Assembly: GCF_000003815.2 (NCBI RefSeq)
Contig: NC_049979.1
Span: 10,448,471-10,512,470 of the forward strand
DNA: 64,000 nt
Direction of reading: 5' to 3'
Source of the DNA: Branchiostoma floridae
Lineage: Eukaryota > Chordata > Leptocardii > Amphioxiformes > Branchiostomatidae
Positions 16,601 to 22,600 of this stretch are shown one piece after another. Made by a program: the position numbers and the translations under genes. Numbering within the stretch: position 1 is the stretch's first letter; each line of letters begins with the position of its first letter. Below the pieces are notes generated by a model that saw nothing but the letters and a program-made list of their open reading frames with translations, made no database searches and was not told the origin of the DNA.

Positions 16601-19600
16601 TGTCAATGTGAGAAAGTGTTTGTACCACTATATATTGCCTCTGTCATCAATATAGACCATGGTAAAATAGTGTTTGTACCACTCATAACCAAAAAATCAA
16701 TGTGTATTGTACTATTCCCTGGACCTAACCAATGTGAGAAAGTGTTTGTACAACTATATATGGCCTACAGCATTCAATATAAACCTTGGTAAAACTCTGT
16801 TTTTACTAATCATAATCAATCATAATGTGCATTGTATCATGTATTCCCAGTAACCTACGGGAGAGAGAGTTACCAGTAGTACCAATCCTGATTTATATTG
16901 TACATCCTGTCTTCCCCAGGACTTGACCAACCTGATCCGTCTGCAGTTCCTCCAGTCACTGGGTCTGAAGGACCCACAGTACCTGCCCAACCCTGTGTGT
17001 TTACTGTGTAACTACTCCACACACATCCTGTACCATCTGCCCAACATTACCAGGCTCGATGCATTCGATGTCTCCAGCAAGGCTCTCAAGGATTTAGCAG
17101 AGGTTTGTACTGCATCTTCTGTCAAACTCAAAGCATAATGGTAAAGGTGAAGCATAGTGCAGTACGTTACATCTGTGAACTATCTGGGTAACCAGATTAC
17201 CTCTGACCTGTCTGATGATGAGTCAATTCGTTATCATGTCAGAGGGTTCTATACCAAAGCCAATTCCTTGATACGAAAATTCCGATTCGCCTCTCCTGGA
17301 GTGAAGCGCGTCCTTTTTGATGCATATTGTTCCTCGATATATTGCGCTCAGCTATGGTGTCAGTATAACTTGGGTACGATTCGCAGGCTACGCGTAGCCT
17401 ATAACAATGCTCTTAGGATTGTGTTAGGTTATCGAACGAGAGATAGTGCCAGCCAAATGTTTGTGACACATGGGACTGATACCTTTGTAGCTAGAAGGAG
17501 AAAACTAACGCATGCATTTGTACAACGCATCGCCACATCTACAAACAACATTATCTCCCGGCTATACCACTCAGATGCCTTCTTGCATAGCAAATTCTGG
17601 ACACACTATGTGAATCTTGTTTTCAAAAGCCCAGGCTAATTTAACTTTTTTATTGTACATAAAGTGTATGTGTATTGTTGTATTGTATGTTTTTATGTGA
17701 TATGGGCCAAGGGCCTGCAATAAAGTTGAAATAAAAAAAAAATAAAATATATTTTTTAATCATAGTATTACTCTGTGACTGTGACTGTTGGAAGGTCTGA
17801 GTAGACGAATGAATAGATTGAAAGTGTATTTGTATACTTAACACCCCAGACTACAGTTGTGAAGAAGAAGATGTATTACAACATGCGTGTCAAGACTATC
17901 CAGCGCAACATGATGGACATGCTCAACAGGCTTCAGCAGCAGAAACACAGCCTCCTGCAGTCCCCACATGAAAGGATGAGGGCGCTTCAGTTCTGCATCA
18001 AATCTGTAAGTTGAGGAAAAGCAACAAAATAGTAGGATAGTAGATGCATTAATAAGCTCATGGGGATTTAATTTTGCAACATGGGGGAAATAAATTGGTC
18101 TAGATGGTCTTAAGTTTGTGGTTAAAACAAGGGAGTAGGACAAAATCAATTTCGCAGTGGTTTAAGTTTGCGATAAAGAGGTCAGGTCACAAAGCAAACC
18201 TGCAAACTTGAATCCACCATGAAAGTCAACATTTACAATAATGTAGACATTTATGTGCTGGTCACAGATAGTGTTTCAAGCTACATTTCACATTTGTATA
18301 GCTTGCATATCATCTATTTTCTCATCAGTCATTTTAATCAGGCTGTCACTACTTTACTGAATGTTATGTGTCTGTGCATCTGCCATCAGGTGGAGAGAGA
18401 TTTGGAGGAGATAGCTCTGGGTGCTCCGTCCCCAAAGGAAGAGGTAGAGAAGGAGAAAGTGAAAGATGAAGGAGAGGATGGACAGGAGAGTGGCACCGAG
18501 AGCGACCAGGAAGGAGAGAAGGAGAAAAGAGTGGACCAGCTCAAGGCCAAGATGGGCGCTGTTAGACAGCGGCTCATGACATGGGAGAAGAGACTCAAGG
18601 AGTGAGTACTAAATCTAACTTTGAAGGAACTTGATTTTGCAGTTTCTTTTGTTGTTGGTGTGTATTACTGACAGAAAATCTGCATCGTTTGTGATACTCA
18701 CCGAAGAGGTCACCGCAAAATTGCAAATATAGATTCACCTCAAACTGAAAAAAAGTATGGATGCCAGGTGTGTAAACCACTAACTGGTTGATTTTACAAG
18801 CAGTTCTTGGCAAAAATTTGCAAGCTAAGATTTGTTTTTCTGACACACTACATAGTTTTTGCTGATGTTAGTGTATGTATTTTTCCAGGGTGGAGGATTT
18901 CTATGAAGACAGTTGCAGTAGGATCAAGTCTGTGTCAGAGCAGACAGTTCGCAGACTGGTGACCGAGCTGGAGACGGGAGGAAACGTGAGGTTTGAAGAC
19001 GGCAGGTCTACCGATGTGTGGTAAGTTATTCAGAATAGCTTCATGTGTAATTCTAGCAATGACCTAAGTATGACATTCTGGGATAAACCTGTCCAGGTTC
19101 TGTGCAGGTTAAGTGAATGTTTCAGTGTCACTTTGACTTTGTAACTTCCGCTTTCTTTCACTTTGTTCCTGCAGGTTCAACTCTTGCCATGACCTGATCC
19201 TGTCCAGGTTCTGTGCAGGGGACTACAAGGGGCAGGGCATTCTGGGTATTAAAATCCATCGGATCACCAGAGTGCACAACCGTATCCTCAGGACCAGGTT
19301 TGAGGAGAAACTCACAGCAGCCATATCGGACAAGTCAGACAACGCTTCTTATACCAATAAGTGAGCGGTATCTTTTTCATATAACTACTGTTTCTGGTTA
19401 GCAATATGGCTAGCAAGAGAAATCTTCTGAAGCAATTGATATTTAATGATATTTAATCTTGTAAAATGTCAAAATAAGCATTTTATGTATGTAACAGCAT
19501 CTTAGCAGGATTGGACTGCCATTGTCAACACAAAGGGAAAGTAGGACTTGTGAACATATTCTCCTTGTTGTAGCTATTTCATTCACATGTGATACAGTTT

Positions 19601-22600
19601 TTATACTAAGGGGATCAGTCGCTTGGAGGGAACCCAACTCACTATCAGTAAGGGAACCTATATCAAGGCCACTTTCTTTATTTCAATAGGACAAATGCCT
19701 TCAAGAAGTACCTGGAGTACCTGTTCTATGTGTGGGACCCTGAGCTGCCGGGGGCTGGCACTGATCCACACAGAGTCCTGGAGGAAGGGTTCATGGATTC
19801 ACACACCTATCAGGTAGGTGAAAACACACCTATCCAGTTATCAACTAAAGCAGTGTTGAAGTGTAATTACCAACACTTTCAATTACAAACATTTTCAAGT
19901 GTCCAACTACAGTCTTTGTCAAGGAATGAGCAACCCTCACATTTTGACATGTTATCTAGACAGAACGGCAATGAACTCTTTATTTGTGTATTTTCCAAAC
20001 TTTGCACTGGAAATAGTCATTATCTTCCTTTCCCTTATATCATAGCAACTAGGAAGAGATGGTGCCATCCCCTTGTCCAACAGCCTGAGTCTGGCAGAGC
20101 AGCACAGGATAAACTTTCACCTCAAGGTGGCCAAGGGCAGAGCTGCAGCAGACTCCTGTCCCTTCAGACATGGTACGGTGGTGTCCTGAAATCAATGGGG
20201 CACACATTTAACATAGTAGAACACCTCAGCTGGCACTGTGAACCTGTAAATACTGCATATAGCATCAGTCTTCTTTGTCTTTACTACCAGTGGATGACTA
20301 GCTCATCTGTTCATTGAATTCATTTGAGCTAAACTGGTTTGAGATCACTTTTACTTCTACTTCCATGATATGTCACAATGGCTGTTTATTTTTGTCTTCA
20401 GACAGATTATTATCAGCGTAGTACATGTTTGATGTAGGATTCTAAAAAGTATTCATTTCATTTTTGTTCTATTTCAAATAAGTTGTTTGGTGGTTAGAAC
20501 TGGGTATCAGTTTGAATGTCATCAAATTTTGATTCTCCATACTTGCAGTGATATCTATCGTCACAATCATGTTTCTCCAATGATTGGATGTCGTGTTTTT
20601 CAGGACAATTGATTGTCTGCAAAGTGTACATGGGAAAGAGTTCTCCTGCCAAGGATAGCAAGTCGTAAGTTGAGAATTTCTTTGTATATCCTTACATACA
20701 TTTCCTTGCAGGATTACCTGATGTTTCTTTGTTCCTAGGTAGTTTACCCTGTCCATTTTAATGCCCTTTTTATGAAGAAGACATTGATGCTGAAAGACTA
20801 CCTGGGGCAGTGTGCACTGTTTTTAACGTTGTACTTTTATCCTCTTACAGTATATGCAAAGAGAACTACCCAGAAGCAGACTCAGTATTCAGACCCAGAA
20901 AGCAAGAAGAACCACAAAGTCCAAAGAAGGGTATGTACCATCATCACTTTACAGCATTTGATTAGCTGGCACTCAAACGTGGGATTCGCCAACAGTTTCT
21001 TCCTGTATTGTTGATATACGTGCTCCCTCTTCAACAATTTGAAAAATGTTTAAGAACACATGTATTTCGATTAATCAGCTTGTAGTCGATAACTGATAAT
21101 ATCAAGTAACAAGTAAGTAAGTCAATGACAAAGATAGGGTCTTTCCTACATTGTTGATATCTGTATTTTGTCTTGCCCAGATGTTGTAAGCAGTATCCTG
21201 AACTCAGGCGGTCCCCACACAGAGTGTGACTGCAGTGGTCGGCAGTGTGAGTGGTTCGTGTTTGACCACGAGCTGGTCATGCCCGAGTATGTCATCGACT
21301 TCGAGTACATCACAAGGGTAAGCAGCCTTTCTGCAGAATTGATTTGATTTCAGATGTTTGTATTGTTTTATCTATTTTGTATACACATTGACCTAAAAGT
21401 GTATTAATTTGTTCATTAAAGGAAATAGTGCAGCTTGAAAGAGTACCTATCTTGTGGAGATATCAGTCAGAAATTCTTTGCAGTGCTTGTCACGATTTTT
21501 TCCTGTTTCCTTCCTATGCCAAGCCTACAGTACTGTATATTTGTTAAGATTACCAAGTTTTAAGCCATTTATATACAGTAGAAGTCGGCTATTGGCATCA
21601 TCGATTTGTCAGCGAATTTTACCCGTTTACCCGACTTAGTCCAATAACCCTAGGAGAGTCCAAACGATCGGCGGGGGAGGGGGGTGCTGGTTACGGACTC
21701 AGGGTTGAAATAACCATACACACACATGTCAAAACTGGTATTATATAACTGGCAGTGAAACTTGTATAAGCGACCACGTCTGTAAGACGACCATCGGCCT
21801 ATTACGACCGCTTTTGGCCGGTCCCGATTTTCCTCCCCATAGACACAAGCATTAAGCAACGTGGCCAAAGCGACCACTTGTCTTCTGTGACCGCGACCAC
21901 CCCGAATCCGGTCCGCCCGCGACCGAAATGTTGCCGAAGACGACCGCGTCATTTTCAAGTGTGTAGTGGCCTCGATTTTTGATGATATCTGGCGGGAAAT
22001 CCGCTAAAATCGGCTTGTGTTTTGGCGAAGAAAACTTGCCGAAACGACTGCGTCATTTTCAAGACTGTAGCAACTGTCGATATTTCATGATAACTCGCGA
22101 GAAATATCGCTAAAATTGGCTTGTGTTTTGGCAACTAAAATGTTACCGAAACCACTGCGTTATTTTTAAGGGTATAACATCATCGATTTTTTATCATAAC
22201 TGCCGGGAAATAACGGCAAAATCTGTGTGTTTGGGTTCTGTATCGCGCCGAGCCAAAATCAAACATGGCGCCCAAGAGGTCAATCGGTGTCATTGGGAAA
22301 GTCCACTGGAGTGTAGGTAGAAATGTTGCGTAGGTTGTTATTGTACTCTACATTTAAACCCTACAAAATGCAAATTTATTTTCATAAAACTTGTTTAAAG
22401 TAAAGGTAACAGATATAAGATATCTTTATAACTTTATAACGCATTTCATTAGAGAATAAAAGGTGTATGTGTGTCTTTTTGAGAAACTGCTCACCCCTGC
22501 TTCTAGTGAAGCGTCGATTTGTCAACATCTCCATGATTAGAAGCGTCGGTGGGGTTAAACTTGTTTTTCTCGGCAAATTTTCGTCTTCTTGGCAGCGTTG

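Follow-up and report, generated by a model that had tools for sequence, protein, structure and literature searches.

A divergent, PARP-like and probably inactive domain between the leucine-rich repeat blocks of amphioxus LRRC9

A gene of the amphioxus Branchiostoma floridae encodes a protein in which a stretch that is not leucine-rich lies between two blocks of leucine-rich repeats (LRRs), raising the question of which fold that stretch adopts and whether it could still act as an enzyme. The original prediction, made from the 64,000 nucleotides of DNA analysed here (the window), was a candidate divergent PARP domain that would be a pseudo-enzyme or a binder. Our reading is that the gene is LRRC9, that residues 433–671 correspond to the ART-like domain published for this family and that the domain is most likely a non-catalytic binding module (probability roughly 0.85).

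The gene model was built from splice sites and the open frame alone (Table 1). It comprises 35 exons and 1518 codons plus stop, with no frame break or internal stop, and each exon is preceded by AG and followed by GT, bar the first and last exon ends; the start codon in exon 1 and exons 34–35 are its least certain parts. Pfam analysis of the full-length protein returned LRR_4 (E value 2.7e-68, 15 stretches) and further LRR families, and an LRR pattern matched 19 times, 5 matches being N-terminal and 14 C-terminal of the island. Joining exons 10–15 gave 239 residues with zero LRR pattern matches. The predicted non-LRR block between two LRR blocks is therefore present, although its extent, put at about 238 residues (434–671), is 239 residues (433–671) in the present model, and the peptides quoted for it were all found in these exons. 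The linker ahead of the block returned weak, chance-level Pfam matches to coiled-coil families. The name LRRC9 derives from the label used in the original prediction, from the general character of the family and from the presence of published LRRC9 motifs.

Two introns of the model and several flanking regions contain features of their own. Intron 15 (21318–26852, + strand), directly 3′ of the ART-like domain, is the longest of the model (5.5 kb) and contains several similar open frames of repeat-like appearance. Intron 6 holds an open frame of 162 residues with an A-rich tail behind it (17151–17639, + strand), presumably the end of a LINE-type element; the frame had no meaningful Pfam match (best E value 0.069). 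Downstream, exons of a neighbouring gene on the − strand (41393–46097) encode Clathrin_H_link (43261–43482, E value 1.2e-11) and TSNAXIP1_N (45264–45548, E value 6.8e-13), a pair reminiscent of CLHC1. Upstream lie a Ser-, Lys- and Arg-rich open frame of 878 residues (8405–11041, + strand; no Pfam match at E ≤ 0.1), preceded by short Cys-rich frames (6476–6757) that we assume could belong to a PHD-finger gene, and a THAP domain (2612–2869, − strand, E value 2.2e-13), probably mobile-element-related or from a THAP-family gene.

Table 1. Features of the LRRC9 locus (positions in the window)
Feature	Position	Strand	Basis
LRRC9 gene, 35-exon model	13647..37567	+	Splice sites and frame
N-terminal LRR block, exons 2–6; 5 LRR matches, residues 102–201	14700..17102	+	Pattern, Pfam; nearest solved sequence PPP1R7/SDS22
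Charged, probably helical linker ahead of the ART-like domain, exons 7–9	17850..19020	+	Sequence
ART-like (PARP-like) domain, exons 10–15, residues 433–671	19175..21317	+	Profiles; published as LRRC9-ART
Six exons of the ART-like domain	19175–19360, 19690–19813, 20046–20172, 20604–20664, 20851–20930, 21181–21317	+	AG/GT flanks, one open frame
Tyr508-Val509, place of PARP His-Gly (motif I)	19727..19732	+	Published Tyr474-Val475 of human LRRC9 (PMC7955679)
Exon 13 with VCKVYMGKS, where the PF00644-matched stretch begins	20604..20664	+	Pfam
Glu649, place of PARP catalytic Glu (motif III)	21249..21251	+	HMM alignment and published position 604
D-x5-PEY-x2-DFEY, differing from the published signature D-(5)-PEY-(2)-EFEY by a single E-to-D change	21264..21308	+	Sequence compared with PMC7955679
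C-terminal LRR blocks, exons 18–33; 14 LRR matches, residues 771–1381	27751..35593	+	Pattern, Pfam

The PARP resemblance was assessed against PF00644 (PARP), whose curated cut-off is 26.7 bits. All three queries matched below it: exons 8–15 (353 residues; E value 0.021, 14.8 bits), residues 433–671 (E value 0.0081, 16.1 bits) and the last 92 residues of the block (E value 0.018, 15.0 bits). The profile match on which the original prediction turned was thus obtained, but at sub-threshold strength, and hhalign, comparing the single sequence with a PARP alignment, returned a probability of 7.9 % (P 0.0043), too weak to use alone. The matched stretch, residues 577–667 (91 residues), falls on profile positions 107–198 of 199, in the C-terminal half, and starts at the segment that had been likened to the V-x-V-L-x-G strand. 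The predicted order of motifs accordingly held for the C-terminal half, whereas the entry helix and YLFYVWDPE as the counterpart of LFHGT were matched by no profile; a second hhalign match, of 13 residues, placed the neighbourhood of YLFYVWDPE at the opposite end of the PARP profile from the one expected. With all 1518 residues as the query, the Pfam matches at E ≤ 1 were LRR families and weak chance matches only, without PARP. Run against the complete assembly (513,431,437 bases, 431 contigs), PF00644 gave 30 matches at E ≤ 0.001, none inside the window.

One reversed and five shuffled versions of the block served as Pfam controls. PARP was matched by none of the six, but two of them matched unrelated families (best E values 0.015 and 0.031), so E values of this size prove nothing by themselves. 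A small PARP HMM was also built from seven domains, five from the same assembly plus PARP12 and PARP15 from the PDB; it scored the block at 8.7 bits and the reversed block at 0.1, and 8.7 bits was reached by one of 2000 shuffles (1493 of which received a score). This HMM and hhalign both pair a 21-residue stretch of the block with the ...IFVVF......PEYLIEY end of PARP. Searches of the PDB with phmmer found no match for the 239-residue block, neither PARP nor LRRC9, and two matches at E ≤ 10 for the 353-residue stretch, again neither PARP nor LRRC9. One of these two is a checkpoint protein and the other a CDC45 homologue; both align with the linker and were set aside. Relatives were also sought in viral contigs and in prokaryote genomes, which gave four and 28 pattern matches, respectively, none of them confirmed. 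Taken by itself, the amphioxus sequence is suggestive of a PARP link that is weak but above chance.

The link becomes convincing through published work on the family, and the ART fold predicted for residues 433–671 is supported mainly by that work, which modelled the human protein. Wyzewski et al. (2021, PeerJ; PMC7955679) assign residues 392–625 of human LRRC9 to an ART-like domain that is flanked by LRR blocks. Their top HHpred match for residues 392–624 was PARP10 (5LX6, E value 6.2e-23), and FFAS03 and Phyre2 agreed; they present the domain as most likely a pseudo-enzyme, conserved across many eukaryote lineages, and mention that Matsushima et al. (2009) had already noted the non-LRR island. 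In a 2023 NAR study (PMC10450202), a Foldseek search of AlphaFold models with the PARP1 ART domain is reported to give 19 human matches at E < 1e-5, comprising 17 PARPs, LRRC9 and TASOR, and a pseudo-enzyme review (PMC10211241) lists LRRC9-ART as a pseudo-ART. The prediction of a divergent, probably inactive PARP-like domain therefore agrees with these descriptions (PMC7955679, PMC10450202), our own profile tests agreeing weakly, but its accompanying statement that LRRC9 had been described only as an LRR protein was mistaken, the ART-like domain having been in print since 2021 (PMC7955679). The finding is correct but had been made before. That a cryptic domain published independently was recovered from exons alone indicates that the reading of raw sequence was sound.

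A chance likeness, with an unrelated fold occupying the island between the LRR blocks, would account for the fact that every score obtained from the amphioxus sequence is sub-threshold and for the similar E values that controls reached with other families. We consider it highly improbable: PARP had been proposed before any test was run, no other Pfam family reached E ≤ 1 with the isolated block, and for human LRRC9 independent published comparisons, of profiles and of structures, agree on PARP (PMC7955679, PMC10450202).

Whether the PARP-like domain could catalyse depends on three active-site positions. The motif I His of PARP is absent, its place being taken by Tyr508 according to the published equivalence (PMC7955679). 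The motif II Tyr (GIYFA) is without a counterpart, as no Tyr occurs in residues 536–586 and none lies between the FRHG motif and residue 535; both losses had been foreseen. At motif III, the equivalent of the catalytic Glu of PARPs is given as position 604 of human LRRC9, which is a Lys of low conservation and precedes D609 by five residues (PMC7955679). Five residues back from the equivalent Asp654 lies Glu649, and the seven-domain HMM places this residue on its motif III column, where these mono-ARTs have Ile, in agreement with position 604 and with the prediction of a Glu ahead of the final strand. Glu649 is thus a residue of the kind found at motif III (Glu, or Ile in mono-ARTs). Because two of the three triad places are changed, we infer that catalysis has been lost.

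The domain might nevertheless have kept enzymatic activity, through an active site that is atypical, displaced or completed by a partner protein, and with Glu649 as a candidate catalytic Glu in amphioxus. Beyond the alignment of Glu649 with motif III, such a reading draws on the published text, in which NAD could be docked in one LRRC9-ART model and the authors leave open an atypical activity or completion by a partner, as with HPF1 (PMC7955679). From the sequence we judge it improbable, as Tyr stands in place of the nicotinamide-binding His and motif II lacks its Tyr, and since motif III is a poorly conserved Lys in the published family (PMC7955679), Glu649 may be drift. Either way, Glu649 is a small new datum on whether the pseudo-active site is truly free to drift; together with a tentative lead on location, it is what the present analysis adds to the printed record.

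The non-catalytic binding module that we favour would keep a PARP-type fold and carry out no ADP-ribose transfer. By analogy with the pseudo-ART of TASOR, it may bind protein and set the geometry of the long LRR scaffold. Its site of action may be the motile cilium or sperm flagellum, an idea based on the taxonomic spread of LRRC9, which follows flagellated cells, and on detection in human sperm. The spread resembles the pattern of motile-cilium loss, with an imperfect fit, as not all arthropods lack motile sperm. LRRC9 is described from mosses, liverworts, club mosses and green algae and as missing from flowering plants, except a water lily, and from nematodes and arthropods; the protein was detected in human sperm, and expression is reported in testis, sperm, brain and pituitary (PMC7955679). 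Other evidence did not strengthen the idea. Among the best 60 of 196 matches, the N-terminal LRRs resemble DRC3 and axonemal dynein light chain 1, among many others, but PPP1R7 and LRR proteins of bacteria rank above them, and the repeats are therefore a poor guide to a ciliary role. No RFX X-box match was found near LRRC9 exon 1 (nearest at 4611 and 16406), and the window contains 18 such matches compared with a mean of 20.2 in shuffles. A literature search found two papers that mention both LRRC9 and cilia, in neither of which the passage connects them, and in the main text of PMC7955679 words starting with ‘cili’ or ‘flagell’ do not occur.

Wyzewski et al. instead proposed, from the LRR-ART arrangement, innate-immune-like sensing (PMC7955679), in which LRRC9 would be an ancient immune-type sensor whose LRRs detect foreign objects and whose ART-like domain signals. 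This seems unlikely to us: among the best 60 of 196 matches, the LRRs come closest to those of the PPP1R7 type, intracellular repeats common to many non-immune proteins, and the reported sites of expression are not particularly suggestive of immunity (PMC7955679). We rate a role in the motile cilium or sperm flagellum as the likelier of the two, at somewhat less than even odds. The fuller picture, of a component of these organelles with a PARP-derived structural or regulatory binding module that possibly retains NAD or ADP-ribose binding in lineages with a motif III Glu, is offered tentatively.

The closest known system is the LRRC9-ART family itself (PMC7955679), with which the amphioxus protein shares the LRR-ART-LRR order, the substitution of Tyr-Val for His-Gly and repeat numbers that fall within the published ranges (1–6 N-terminal and 11–20 C-terminal LRRs). 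Of the three motifs published for the family, two occur in the amphioxus protein: DSCPFRHG is an exact instance of [DE]xxxFRHG, and D-(5)-PEY-(2)-EFEY appears as a 15-residue stretch with DFEY for EFEY. The third, PR[IL], given as a conserved and not as an obligatory motif (PMC7955679), is not matched, HRI (residues 556–558) being in the corresponding place, and Glu649 differs from human Lys604. With the PARP domains of PF00644 (PARP10, PARP12, PARP14 and PARP15 type), the likeness lies in the C-terminal half, namely the V-x-V-x-x-G strand and the FV-x-F-x6-PEY-(V/L)-I end, features that match PARP12 (2pqf) and PARP15 (6ry4), whereas the block lacks the LFHGT His and the GIYF/GSYF Tyr and scores below the family cut-off. 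The remaining comparison is with the pseudo-ART of TASOR (DUF3715), a protein that is not known to contain LRRs. Although the published CLANS analysis puts TASOR and LRRC9 in separate clusters (PMC7955679), the two were recovered together in one Foldseek search (PMC10450202), and published descriptions liken them as non-canonical, possibly inactive PARP-like ARTs (PMC10450202, PMC10211241).
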